Source: a virus. Taken from it: a stretch of 42,199 nucleotides of DNA. Below, in pieces: positions 26,403 through 32,878 of this stretch (position 1 is its first letter; each line of letters starts with the position of its first letter). A program made the translations under genes and the position numbers. Location: positions 1 through 42,199 of the IMG/VR virus record IMGVR_UViG_3300029319_000123. The stretch is one strand, 5' to 3'. Under the pieces are notes generated by a model. The model saw nothing but the letters and a program-made list of their open reading frames with translations. It was not told where the DNA came from and searched no databases.

Positions 26403-26789
26403 ATGGCTAAGAATAACTACAATAAAGTAGATAAAGTATACAACATAATGGGCTTAGGTAATACTAAGCTAGTTGGTTTTAAACTTACAGGAGCTAACTC
26501 CATACATAAAGATAAGAACTCTTATCACATATGTTTAAGAAAAGATAAGTTTGACTTCAAAGAAGTAGGAGTTATCAGGAGTTATCCAGCATATGAACAG
26601 TTCAAAGACATATGTGAAAACGCAAGTTCTACTTTAACCAAAGGTAAATACAAGCTAAAAGCAGATGGTACTATACCAAAAGCCTTGCTTGATATCTTAG
26701 GTACTAATGACGTTGCAGAAGAAATCAAAGGAGTACGAACTCTAGCGGAAGTAGACGCAACAATGAAGAGTTGGTCGACTGATAAATAG
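26403..26789 (+). CDS. First rightward protein (128 aa), unknown
   Basis: A basic protein with its own promoter region, ribosome site (AAAGG) and strong terminator, so it is a monocistronic early gene. Sequence: N-terminal MAKNNYNKVDKVYNIMGLGN, a beta-rich centre (LVGFKLTGANSIHKDKNSYH) and a helical end with VRTLAEVDATMKSW. No domain is recognised. Single-gene early transcription suggests a regulator or host-modifying protein, but nothing in the sequence shows it. Confidence 0.7.
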   Translation: MAKNNYNKVDKVYNIMGLGNTKLVGFKLTGANSIHKDKNSYHICLRKDKFDFKEVGVIRSYPAYEQFKDICENASSTLTKGKYKLKADGTIPKALLDILGTNDVAEEIKGVRTLAEVDATMKSWSTDK

Positions 26790-26809: not shown

Positions 26810-26857
26810 AATCTAGGTACTACTTATTTAATTATAGGTAGTACTTAGATTTTTTTT
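26810..26857 (+). terminator. Rho-independent terminator of the first early gene
   Basis: 14-bp stem AATCTAGGTACTAC (26810-26823) against GTAGTACTTAGATT (26838-26851), one G-U pair, 14-nt loop, followed by eight Ts. It lies 20 bases after the stop of the 128-aa gene. Confidence 0.85.
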
Positions 26858-27162: not shown

Positions 27163-27621
27163 ATGTCAAAGAAATATAGAAAATCTATTACACCTACTAC
27201 TAAGAAAGCCTTTGTAGGTGTTGATGAGAACAATGGTAATCTTATCTATACAGATACAGGTCTACCTCTTATCAAAGGTACTAATGAGTATCAACGTAAT
27301 GTTGAGGGTATTGATTATCCAACTCATGAGTGTGTGTCTTGTTCTAAAAGAACTGATGTTATAAGCCCTCGTTGCTACGAGTGTAGAGAGCAGGACAAAG
27401 AACTAGAACAAAAGATGAAACGACTTAGCAGATTAACGAGAGAAGGTATTGTTCCAGAGGACACTGATAATATCTTTGGGGTTATTGATGCTGAGTGGAA
27501 ACCCAATAGCTTTGATACCGAAGTTGTTGAGGAAGCTAACAAGCTATGTACCAATTGTTCCATAGTCTTACCAAAAACATTTGGTCGTAAAAGATTATGT
27601 GAACATTGCAGAGCTGATTGA
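27163..27621 (+). CDS. Double zinc-ribbon protein (152 aa)
   Basis: Two four-Cys knuckles: C57-x2-C60 with C71-x2-C74 (CVSCSKRTD...CYEC), and C129-x2-C132 with C146-x2-C149 (CTNCSIVLP...CEHC). A charged coiled-coil stretch lies between (EQDKELEQKMKRLSRLTREG). The N-terminal 50 residues are basic and beta-like. Such paired ribbons usually bind nucleic acid or RNA polymerase. It is placed as an early gene directly before the large structured RNA region, so a regulator is plausible, but the target is unknown. Confidence 0.7.
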   Translation: MSKKYRKSITPTTKKAFVGVDENNGNLIYTDTGLPLIKGTNEYQRNVEGIDYPTHECVSCSKRTDVISPRCYECREQDKELEQKMKRLSRLTREGIVPEDTDNIFGVIDAEWKPNSFDTEVVEEANKLCTNCSIVLPKTFGRKRLCEHCRAD

Positions 27622-27632
27622 TTGTTAGTATA

Positions 27633-28045
27633 GAGTGCTTACGCTGTGGATAGGTAAGCACTCAATAGTAATTATCACTACTGCGTAGGTGTGTTTCCTT
27701 TCTATATACAGTACGTATGCAACTAACTAATCTATGCAGTAGTGATAACTACTTGATGGAATATTGAAATAGTATATCTCCCCATAATTTCAAGTAGTGA
27801 TTAAAGCTATCTATTAGTAAGAGTTAAGTTAATTCCCTGTTGTCTTAACAACTGAACGTAGGTAGCTTGTAGTACATACGCTTTCTGCAGAAAGTAAACA
27901 ACAGTACTCAGTGAGCTGAGCTAATGTGTGTGCTACAAGCTATCTATGTGTGTTCTAGCAATAAATAAATATCTACAACTACAACACATAGATACAATCA
28001 CACGCAGATAAACCATAGACTAGCGATAGTTTGTGGTTTTTCTGC
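27633..28045 (+). ncRNA. Large ornate structured RNA region (about 410 nt), possibly a new class
   Basis: Gene-free but folds as consecutive long plus-strand helices. H1: 27633-27642 with 27654-27663, 10 bp perfect. H2: 27672-27690 with 27730-27748, 19 bp including 2 G-U. H3: 27749-27756 with 27790-27797. H5: 27856-27880 with 27925-27949, 25 unbroken bp including 5 G-U, enclosing hairpins CTTTC-TGCA-GAAAG (27881-27894) and CTCAG-TGAG-CTGAG (27907-27920). H6: 28004-28022 with 28027-28045, one U-U mismatch, GCGA tetraloop. Segment 27804-27814 can instead pair with 27858-27868, competing with H5. Either a stand-alone RNA or a long leader of the operon starting at 28063. Confidence 0.7.
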
Positions 28046-28062
28046 TTTAACAAAGGAGAGTA

Positions 28063-28206
28063 ATGGAGTGTGATAACTGTAGACAAGGAAAGATGTCTGT
28101 AATTGGACAACTAGCCAATGTCAAATCAACTGTAATGAACATGGTGAGGTGTTCCCTGTGTGGTTATGGGAGTGTAAGAAAAGCGAACACAAAGAGAGGG
28201 TTGTAA
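28063..28206 (+). CDS. Small zinc-ribbon protein (47 aa)
   Basis: ATG at 28063 with AAAGGAG ribosome site, 17 bases after the H6 hairpin. It encodes MECDNCRQGKMSVIGQLANV and ends NMVRCSLCGYGSVRKANTKR-GL. C3-x2-C6 and C31-x2-C34 make one zinc ribbon. Its TAA overlaps the ATG of the next gene (TAATG). It opens the MoxR-VWA operon, immediately behind a structured leader. Ribbon mini-proteins of this kind often contact RNA polymerase or nucleic acid; no specific family is recognised. Confidence 0.7.
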   Translation: MECDNCRQGKMSVIGQLANVKSTVMNMVRCSLCGYGSVRKANTKRGL

Positions 28207-29899: not shown

Positions 29900-30419
29900 T
29901 GGAACAGAAGGAGATAGCAAAGACATTATTGAGTTTAGTGAAAAGCTCAAGAACGTTGCTATAACAGTAGAGATACTGAAGTATCTCAATGGTCTAGCCA
30001 TAGACTTAGGATACAACAGACAAATTCTGCCTGAGTTCTTAGATATAAATGCTGAGAACAAAGAGAATATAGATGTTGTAGTAGATGATAGGTTTCCTGT
30101 CATACTGTACATGGCTATGCCTCACTATCATAGAGCAGGAGAAAAAGTAGATACTCATGTTCGTATGTTCTTTGAAGTAATTGTAAAGAACAGAGATGGT
30201 AGTAAACCAGATAAGGAATATACACAGGTTGCTGTAGATGTTCCTATTGAAGCAATCAACATACTTCCAAACATACCTGAAGTTCGTTGGATAGATGAAA
30301 AGCTAAACCGAAATGATGGCTATGAACATTGGAGAGATAATGTTGATAAAGATAAATTAAGTAAAGATGTCATCTCTAAGTTTGAGGAGATGCTAAAGAG
30401 AGAGGATAATGATGAGTGA
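29892..30419 (+). CDS. Operon protein (175 aa), unknown
   Basis: Helical N-terminus (DIIEFSEKLKNVAITVEILK), then a beta-rich domain with VDDRFPVILYMAMPHYHRAG and VDTHVRMFFEVIVKNRDGSK. The C-terminus is charged helix ending KFEEMLKREDNDE. No family is recognised. It is directly upstream of the MoxR ATPase and overlaps it by 11 bases, so it is made in step with it. It could be an adaptor or substrate-recognition subunit, by analogy with other MoxR operons; unproven. Confidence 0.6.
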   Translation: MPSGTEGDSKDIIEFSEKLKNVAITVEILKYLNGLAIDLGYNRQILPEFLDINAENKENIDVVVDDRFPVILYMAMPHYHRAGEKVDTHVRMFFEVIVKNRDGSKPDKEYTQVAVDVPIEAINILPNIPEVRWIDEKLNRNDGYEHWRDNVDKDKLSKDVISKFEEMLKREDNDE

Positions 30420-31143
30420 TAATTTAGCTGATATGAGCAGTTGGGATAAACTCAAAGCTGTTATCTCTGTATCAGACAGAATACTTCTGTATGGTAGAGC
30501 AGGTACAGGTAAAACATATCAAGCCAATAGATATGGTTTGAAGGAAGGACAAAGCACATACAACATTACACTTACAGCAGACAGTACGGCTACCGAGCTA
30601 ATGGGGCATTATATTGCTACTGCTGATGGTGGTTTTCGTTGGAAAGATGGTAATGGTGTTCGTGCTTTCAAAGAGGGTAGCAGACTTGTTATCAACGAGA
30701 TAGACCATGCAGGTGCAGATGTGCAGACATTTTTACATGCACTATTAGATGACAAAGAGTTTGCAGGTTTCAACTTGCCTAATGATGAGGCAGAGTTTGT
30801 AAAACCAATGCCTAACTTTCAATGTGTTGCAACTATGAACGGAGTACCAGAGGACTTACCAGAGCCTCTAGCAGATAGGTTTCCTGTCAAGTTGCACATA
30901 GATGAGGTACACAAAGAGGCATTGAACTCTTTGCAACCAAGACTAAAAGCTATTTACTTAGATACAGACCAAGCTAATACATCTGTACGTAGATGGATTG
31001 AGCTACAAAAACTAATGGATAGTGGTATCAAAACAGAAGTAGCTGTAGATGTTTTGTTCCAAGATGAAGATGAACAGTTCGCTGTACTAAATGCACTTGG
31101 TATACAAAATGACAGCAGTACTACAACTGATGATGATGAGTAG
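30409..31143 (+). CDS. MoxR-type AAA+ ATPase (244 aa)
   Basis: An ATP-driven remodelling ATPase. Walker A GRAGTGKT (29-36), Walker B RLVINEID (92-99), sensor-1 Asn in CVATMNG (N144), and arginine finger in EPLADRF (R157). The HADVQTF-like insert region (DHAGADVQTFLHALLDDKEF, 99-118) fits the MoxR/CobS group, which works with a VWA protein to load metal or remodel complexes. It is shorter than bacterial MoxR (about 300+), lacking most of the C-terminal lid. A VWA gene follows with overlapping coding (ATGATGATGAG), matching RavA-ViaA/CobS-CobT logic. The client is unknown. Confidence 0.88.
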   Translation: MMSDNLADMSSWDKLKAVISVSDRILLYGRAGTGKTYQANRYGLKEGQSTYNITLTADSTATELMGHYIATADGGFRWKDGNGVRAFKEGSRLVINEIDHAGADVQTFLHALLDDKEFAGFNLPNDEAEFVKPMPNFQCVATMNGVPEDLPEPLADRFPVKLHIDEVHKEALNSLQPRLKAIYLDTDQANTSVRRWIELQKLMDSGIKTEVAVDVLFQDEDEQFAVLNALGIQNDSSTTTDDDE

Positions 31144-32878
31144 TTTATTCAAAGTACATAGATTAAAGTCAATTAACAAATTGCCTTTTTCTTTGCCTAA
31201 TATGTCATTGATTGCTAATGAAGTAAGGAATTACAAAGTTGTTTATAGTAGTAAACCTTACATACAAAAGAACAAAAATGACATCAATATACCAAAATAT
31301 GTTGCTACTAGAGATGAGGTAGATAGGCAACTACTTGTTCAAGCAGGTATCTTTGTAAAGATACTATTTGGAAATATGAAGTTCCAAAGAAAAGACTTAC
31401 GCTTTTTGTATATTGCAAAGATGTTGTTAGGTCTAAAGTTTGCAAGGATAAGAATAAGCAAAACTTGTAGTAAGTTGGGTGGTCGTGCTAAATACGACAA
31501 ACTTACTAACAAAATAAAAACTTACCAAAAAGCACATGACGAGGATTTTGATGAAGCTATGAAAGAAGCACTCGATACTAATGAGATGTTCTTCTATAGA
31601 CTCTATCAACTTACTTATGCAGGTGTTGTTGGTATTGAAGCAAATGATACTGACATTGAACTTAAAATATACAGAGCAGTAAAAAACTTATACGAACACA
31701 AAGATGTAGAAAAATTCTATTTTGATATGTTGTATGAGATGGCTTTGTATAGAGGTTGGAATTACAATAGTATCACAGATACAGCGATAGGAAACATTGT
31801 AAGAAGTATGTTGCCTTTCAATGTACCTGTTGAAGTAGGACACCAAGATGTATCATATATTAGAAACATACTTAGTAAAGTTTCTCAAACTATCAGAGAA
31901 GCACAATACTATGCATGGAGAACTGATAATGAAAACTACAGGTGGGTTTATGATGAAGAAATTGGTCGTAGTAGAACTGAAAGATATAGACTAAGTTCTA
32001 AGCAAATTAGATACAGACTTAACAAGCTGTATAGAATATTGATTGGTAAAGATGGTTGGTGGAGTAAACAAAGAGTAGAAAACTTACGCAATGAAATGTT
32101 GCCTAGTGATGAATACTCTCCTGTTGATACTACTAAATTAGATAAGAACATATCTAATGAAGAAGGACTTACTCTACCTAAAGAACTTGATGATAAACTT
32201 AAGAAAGAAATTATGGAAGATGCCGACAGAAATTACAGAAGGCATTTTGTAGACCATACTTATGCAGAAGATGGTAATCATGGTAAAGCAAGATTACACA
32301 AGTTCAAACCAAACAAGTCTATACATAAAGCTATTCGTGAACTAAGAAAAAGAAATCACGATAGTGGTGTAGTTCCAAAGAACATGCACAGACTTACAAC
32401 AGATAGGAAAGTTTTTCAAACTAGAAAGACAGTAGCTGGTGGAAGTATGATGATTGATTGTTCTGGAAGTATGGGCATGAGCCAAAGGGATATTGAGGAA
32501 GTAGTAGAGTTATTACCTGCTAGTTGGATTGCAGGATATGTCGGTTATAGAGAGCGTAATAGTGATGGGTATGATGGAGATATTCGTATTATTGCTGACA
32601 ATGGTAGAACAGATACATACTCTATTGGAGAACTTACAGTTTATGGAAACAACAACATAGACTTTGAAGCACTTCAATTACTTGCTACAAAACCTGAGCC
32701 AAGAATTTGGGTAAGCGACCAACAAGTTATTGGTGTAAATGAACAGGGTATGATAAGCAACTTAACTCATGAGAAACGTAAAGAGATTGAACGTTTCGTA
32801 TTGTTGAACAATATTATTCCTATTGAGAATAGGGATATGGTTATTAAGGTAGCAAAACAGCTATCGGTAAAGCGATAG
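31130..32878 (+). CDS. VWA/CobT-like protein, partner of the MoxR ATPase (582 aa)
   Basis: Three consecutive ATGs at 31130, 31133 and 31136 overlap the ATPase stop; starts further left would read inside the ATPase gene, so one of these is taken. Residues 1-400 are helical and basic, many Lys/Tyr. The MIDAS metal site is MIDCSGSMGMS, with D443-C-S-G-S447 (DxSxS). The following GYVGYRERNSDGYDG and ATKPEPRIWVSDQQ match the VWA fold. Length and layout (long helical N-part, C-terminal VWA) resemble CobT and ViaA. The terminator at 32906-32950 ends the operon. Confidence 0.82.
   Translation: MMMSSLFKVHRLKSINKLPFSLPNMSLIANEVRNYKVVYSSKPYIQKNKNDINIPKYVATRDEVDRQLLVQAGIFVKILFGNMKFQRKDLRFLYIAKMLLGLKFARIRISKTCSKLGGRAKYDKLTNKIKTYQKAHDEDFDEAMKEALDTNEMFFYRLYQLTYAGVVGIEANDTDIELKIYRAVKNLYEHKDVEKFYFDMLYEMALYRGWNYNSITDTAIGNIVRSMLPFNVPVEVGHQDVSYIRNILSKVSQTIREAQYYAWRTDNENYRWVYDEEIGRSRTERYRLSSKQIRYRLNKLYRILIGKDGWWSKQRVENLRNEMLPSDEYSPVDTTKLDKNISNEEGLTLPKELDDKLKKEIMEDADRNYRRHFVDHTYAEDGNHGKARLHKFKPNKSIHKAIRELRKRNHDSGVVPKNMHRLTTDRKVFQTRKTVAGGSMMIDCSGSMGMSQRDIEEVVELLPASWIAGYVGYRERNSDGYDGDIRIIADNGRTDTYSIGELTVYGNNNIDFEALQLLATKPEPRIWVSDQQVIGVNEQGMISNLTHEKRKEIERFVLLNNIIPIENRDMVIKVAKQLSVKR

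Follow-up and report, generated by a model that had tools for sequence, protein, structure and literature searches.

A Conserved Plus-Strand Structured RNA in an Uncultivated Virus, and Its Membership of a Family of Tandem Units with Exchangeable Modules

Among phage-borne RNAs, the elaborate non-coding GOLLD and ROOL, each a single fold of 600-800 nt, are the closest described precedents for the RNA reported here, and in GOLLD there is also an association with tRNAs, which lie near or inside it (PMC12286853). Viral tandem stem-loops with constant and variable parts are represented by the TIGR arrays with Tas, whose spacers are paired and 8-12 nt long (PMC12045711), while tandem near-identical repeats are characteristic of the type III toxin-antitoxin systems (ToxIN-like). 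The window that we analysed, the whole of a 42,199-nt stretch of marine-type viral DNA (IMG/VR record IMGVR_UViG_3300029319_000123), has a region that the first-pass annotation likened to GOLLD and ROOL, seeing in it a single large ornate RNA. The conserved plus-strand structured RNA is confirmed, at 27626-28045, but the likeness did not hold, as the region is made up of separate modules in tandem, and one of them is a unit belonging to a widespread family.

The structured stretch and its parts

The structured non-coding stretch (27626-28045, plus strand), recognised by its fold and by covariation among homologues, lies in a gap whose upstream border is a 152-aa zinc-ribbon gene (27163-27621). 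It had been placed between that gene and the MoxR operon, which is right for the upstream side, but a second zinc-ribbon gene of 47 aa (28063-28206, plus strand; MECDNCRQ..., as read from the sequence) stands downstream of the array and precedes the operon; zinc-ribbon-related genes are found downstream of units in 42 cases. The view that the stretch holds no gene was borne out, as the longest stop-free run in the gap is 31 codons on the plus strand and 37 on the minus strand. Behind the gene at 26403-26789 there is a strong-looking terminator, an 18-bp hairpin and then a T run (26810-26851).

Folding of positions 27600-28070 gave -158.4 kcal/mol for the plus strand, compared with a mean of -110.7 (sd 6.3) for dinucleotide shuffles, of which none in 100 was as low (z = -7.55); the z-score of the minus strand was -4.98. 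All of the helices listed in the first-pass annotation are present to within a base or two, except that the three long ones contain eight G-U pairs and not the nine that had been counted. The helices have been conserved, and compensatory changes occur in them. The window structure has 85 pairs, which are 91.6% kept across seven close homologues, 17 of them with changes on both sides, and the covariation score is 0.185 (0.094 for shuffled alignments and at most 0.060 for slid controls).

The RNA, all of whose parts are on the plus strand, begins with hairpin A (27626-27646/27651-27670), which has 18 pairs, contains the 10-bp GAGUGCUUAC stem and shows compensatory change in 5 of 14 pairs in the seven homologues, the same set in which helix B (27673-27690/27730-27747; 18 bp, two G-U) is 100% paired with four compensatory pairs. 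Helix B carries a large pyrimidine-rich loop (UUCCUUUCU ... ACAGUACGUAUG) that, by eye, is like the apical modules of other units (module clusters 10 and 22). Hairpin C (27748-27756/27790-27798), nine pairs in the fold, is missing or replaced in loci L004-L008; the linker after it (27803-27857), matched in at least 75 loci, comprises AGCUAUCUAU-UAGUAAGAG, a hairpin with a CCCUGUU loop (27835-27841) and ACUGAAC. There follows a 24-bp helix with four G-U pairs (27856-27879/27926-27949), which encloses two hairpins and is the family unit. It consists of a 5' handle, GUAGGUAGC (27858-27866), and a 3' handle, GCUAUCUAU (27939-27947), an inner helix whose strands (27867-27879 and 27926-27938) covary, and an apical module (27880-27925) that forms a three-way junction with the hairpins CUUUC-UGCA-GAAAG and CUCAG-UGAG-CUGAG. 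The next element, a terminal hairpin module (CUAUGUGUGUU ... CUACAACUACAACACAUAG; 27944-27999), shares its first bases with the end of the 3' handle. This module was seen in at least 20 loci, including viruses with other handles such as L029, in which (L029:3990-4160) it sits inside another stem with no standard handle, so modules evidently travel without the standard handle too. Last comes a hairpin of 18 pairs, two of them G-U, capped by a GCGA tetraloop (28004-28022/28027-28045), which is supported by the fold and by homologues and was matched in at least 11 loci.

A family of units with exchangeable modules

The 24-bp helix of the window is a member of a family of units that recur, often in tandem, with the 5' arm GUAGGUAGC... 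and the 3' arm ...GCUAUCUAU. Each unit is built from a 9-bp handle that is nearly invariant (GUAGGUAGC/GCUAUCUAU), an inner helix that covaries and an apical module. Relatives were fetched by means of the MoxR ATPase (80 loci), the zinc-ribbon protein (three loci) and two DNA patterns, and the unit, locus and module counts obtained from the DNA patterns are given throughout as minima among the matches listed. A scan for the handle plus the inner helix found at least 419 units, at least 310 of them distinct, at no fewer than 241 uncultivated-virus loci, numbers that are inflated by the relatedness of the loci and drawn from contigs that are mostly fragments; reversed-sequence controls gave none. 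Between one and six units are present per locus.

The 48 stems from the MoxR-anchored loci are 97.9% paired, a figure that is partly selected because scans reward pairing. The double changes in these stems were not forced by the scan, and they occur at 13 of 22 pairs (125 cells, compared with 27 after shuffling), with a covariation score of 0.491 (0.193 shuffled, at most 0.109 slid); the outer nine pairs, which form the handle, barely vary. Across the MoxR-anchored loci, RNA blocks are 75-86% identical even where the MoxR proteins are only 41-50% identical. Once units are oriented, G-U pairs fall at stem pairs 1 (83%), 5 (80%), 15 (61%) and 20 (83%), and the pairs between 10 and 19, except 15, are 88-100% Watson-Crick. 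Wobbles at set positions on one strand are consistent with selection on RNA, and the fixed G-U pairs may serve recognition or the avoidance of a perfect duplex. An enrichment of A-C at the wobble positions came from antisense rows and vanished upon orientation of the units. The most frequent linker element is CCCTGTT, found in 112 of 185 arrays when 4.7 were expected, and it is 66 times sense and twice antisense.

The apical parts fall into at least about 150 classes among the matches listed, at least 67 of them recurring, although the definition of a class depends on BLAST thresholds and class 0 (288-nt loops) may be spurious. The class to which the window's module belongs is present in at least 10 contigs, and its first hairpin covaries, the variants being CUUUC/GAAAG, CUUAC/GUAAG, CUUAU/AUAAG and CGUAU/AUACG. 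By script count, at least 30 pairs of loci combine unrelated modules with an identity of 85% or more in both flanks, and about 25 of these stand after very short look-alike loops are dropped; in the window and locus L003, for example, flanking RNA that is about 99% identical surrounds a 46-nt module in the one and an unrelated 171-nt module in the other. At least 322 pairs of same-class modules share neither flank. Different modules between matched flanks, together with shared modules between unrelated ones, indicate a cassette-like exchange. The apical loops alone have no unusual stability (mean z of -0.75 sense and -0.86 antisense), and module structure is therefore argued from covariation and recurrence and not from energy.

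These properties bear on two of the alternative explanations. One is that the array is a structural RNA that, as do GOLLD and ROOL, forms a large particle by folding or multimerising, for scaffolding or to be packaged. Its long stable helices, junctions and GNRA-capped hairpin would suit such a role, but a fixed architecture is at odds with loci that vary from one to six units and swap their contents wholesale, and we consider the idea improbable. The other is that of a guide-RNA array (TIGR-Tas-like or CRISPR-like) with loops that target nucleic acids, which is suggested by the resemblance to TIGR arrays of viral stem-loops that are in tandem and variable in content (PMC12045711). It is the least likely of the explanations that we weighed, and very unlikely in itself, as the loops form conserved classes that fold and show compensatory changes, unlike free spacers, and the Nop domain (PF01798) is absent from 21 related records, with positive controls matched in four archaea. 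The units also differ from one another, unlike the near-identical tandem repeats of type III toxin-antitoxin systems; a search with PF13958 (ToxN-type) gave no match, but its own controls gave none either.

The first-pass annotation recognised no known RNA here, and no Rfam family was matched: Rfam 15 at the gathering threshold had no matches in the window or in 15 relatives, and at E-values up to 5 the window gave chance-level entries only, with GOLLD, ROOL and HEARO not among them. A further 17 relatives produced one tmRNA hit, outside the units. No similar sequence to the array DNA was found in the INPHARED phages or the PLSDB plasmids, 15 modules had no DNA similarity to sequenced phages or plasmids, and the exact 20-base stem is absent from 84,980 bacterial and archaeal genomes. 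On the strength of those libraries this is a new viral RNA family, absent from Rfam, INPHARED, PLSDB and the open-access full-text literature.

Genomic setting and tRNA-like elements

Units are on the sense strand, usually upstream of an early gene. For 160 of 247 units there is a frame led by a ribosome-binding site (RBS) no more than 450 nt away on the sense side, and for five there is one on the antisense side; three of the 247 are inside a long frame. The neighbouring genes include MoxR with its partner, a metallophosphoesterase-type exonuclease and TerL, and the capsid is SU10-type. The selection on plus-strand RNA that had been proposed from the G-U pairs is upheld by covariation, by the strand-specific positions of the fixed G-U pairs and by this sense orientation to genes. 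The same evidence weighs against a selfish or recombination element whose inverted repeats move as DNA and whose transcription is incidental. Terminal inverted handles, recurrence in intergenic gaps and cassette exchange would all be expected of such an element, but not a single orientation to genes or compensatory RNA changes, and in a DNA cruciform the fixed G-U pairs would be mismatched; we judge it slightly more improbable than a structural RNA.

In the window itself, the MoxR AAA+ ATPase is followed by a 595-aa protein (30409-32878), relatives of which have by eye a von Willebrand-type motif, with no Pfam match, and the two are possibly a MoxR-VWA pair in the phage early region. Beside the array PADLOC found no known defence genes, only MoxR as a weak AAA-domain match. 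Six related viral contig stretches are in GTDB marine bins labelled Actinomycetota, Gammaproteobacteria, Rhodobacteraceae and Flavobacteriaceae, and the assignment of a host from these bins was rejected, as the four labels conflict and indicate no consistent host. Three of these loci carry units, and units in viral contigs that are binned with marine MAGs under conflicting host labels are found at L246:5633-6129, L247:6502-6609 and L248:6725-6807.

Some units and their surroundings have the features of tRNA or tmRNA. A canonical tRNA T-arm is present in 13 of 224 first-pass units, so T-arm modules are a minority, and in modules of three sizes it stands beside a second hairpin within the common stem (L107:3224-3370, L073:3812-3969, L008:4276-4379, L127:2784 and L147). 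Relatives also carry tRNA-like domains of tmRNA, 66-80 nt long and without the tag-coding domain, none of which is in the window, where ARAGORN and Rfam found no tRNA or tmRNA genes. One of these mini-tmRNAs scored 52.4 bits against an Rfam RF00023 cut-off of 47. In seven, chosen by a search that demanded pairing, the acceptor stem and T-arm are 100% paired, five pairs being double-changed, and all seven have G-U at pair 3-70; a model built from the seven detects further members. Mini-tmRNAs are located on the minus strand at L130:5418-5494, L117:1587-1666, L199:12095-12174, L109:1042-1113, L113:9998-10075, L119:7441-7515 and L249:2661-2738, and on the plus strand at L166:7971-8042, L191:7054-7129 and L069:1106-1171. 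Those of L117, L130 and L199 lie downstream of units at a distance of about 100 nt or less, and several of the mini-tmRNAs have a T-run behind them. G3-U70 and A73 are kept at 12 of 13 mini-tmRNA places. G3-U70 is the identity element for alanyl-tRNA synthetase.

Possible functions and comparison with known systems

The main rival to the function that we propose is a leader acting in cis, in which the units belong to the 5'-UTR and stabilise the early gene downstream or regulate it, as attenuators, riboswitch-like elements or mRNA-protecting hairpins. It draws on the sense orientation of the units, on the 91 of 176 last units that end no more than 30 nt before a start codon and on a weak match to an intrinsic terminator within the GCGA-tetraloop hairpin (28010-28039). 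There is also some association of module and gene, since same-class modules precede the same gene family in 15% of pairs compared with 4% when shuffled, an excess that shared ancestry could explain, as could regulation; at 15%, a module is not bound to a single downstream gene. One module is found before many gene families and one gene with many modules, and 120 units have another unit next, before any gene. Pairing of the pyrimidine-rich loops with their own RBS was considered and rejected (own 5.48, permuted 5.66). A role as a cis leader is a serious idea that we nevertheless think rather unlikely.

We favour, tentatively and as a little less than an even prospect, an array of modular RNA cassettes in the early transcript, with a factor for the handle and modules that act in trans. 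The early transcript would carry the array, its units linked by the CCCUGUU-loop hairpin, and we infer that each handle would be recognised by one shared factor that trims or holds the unit. This could be a host RNase or RNA-binding protein, a suggestion prompted by the failure to find a viral RNase III or a Nop gene in the 21 related records. As RNAs for host takeover or anti-defence, the modules would copy or bait the RNA machinery of the host, and recombination at the shared handle would exchange them between viruses, as occurs with protein effectors. Trans action on host RNA or the translation machinery is favoured by the 15% same-gene figure, the absence of an own-RBS match, the T-arm modules and the G3-U70 mini-tmRNAs, and on this indirect evidence we tentatively favour RNAs aimed at such targets. 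The fuller proposal, a shuffled library of about 150 RNA effector modules on a common handle that are exchanged between genomes much as protein anti-defence genes are and that target host translation or RNA-based immunity in trans, is more doubtful, and we would put it level with the cis leader.

Mosaic exchange of folded domains on a constant handle is familiar for proteins, and we know of no counterpart in RNA. Should the modules act in trans, dozens of new functional RNAs, some of them similar to parts of tRNA or tmRNA, would be available from a single viral lineage, and RNA-based host takeover would become directly testable. If they act in cis instead, there is still a large unlisted family of RNAs in uncultivated viruses, and its strong covariation can guide work on structure.

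The elements of the relatives share with the tRNA-like domain of tmRNA (RF00023) an acceptor stem, G3-U70, A73 and a T-arm, and differ from tmRNA in being without a tag reading frame or mRNA-like domain. The proposed role of a viral small RNA that mimics or replaces a host RNA is shared with the RNA anti-CRISPRs, or Racrs (PMC10651486), and with the phage tRNAs that defeat defence (PMC11555353), although most unit modules are not tRNA-like. As in the TIGR arrays, there are constant and variable parts in viral tandem stem-loops; here, however, constant-sequence stems and conserved folded loops of about 20-290 nt take the place of short paired spacers (PMC12045711), and no Nop-domain protein was found in the 21 related records. 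With GOLLD and ROOL, the units have in common that they are elaborate non-coding RNA borne by phages, and with GOLLD an association with tRNA, in their case as T-arm modules (PMC12286853). They give no covariance-model match to either, and, in place of one large fold, they are several short independent units that are exchanged between viruses.
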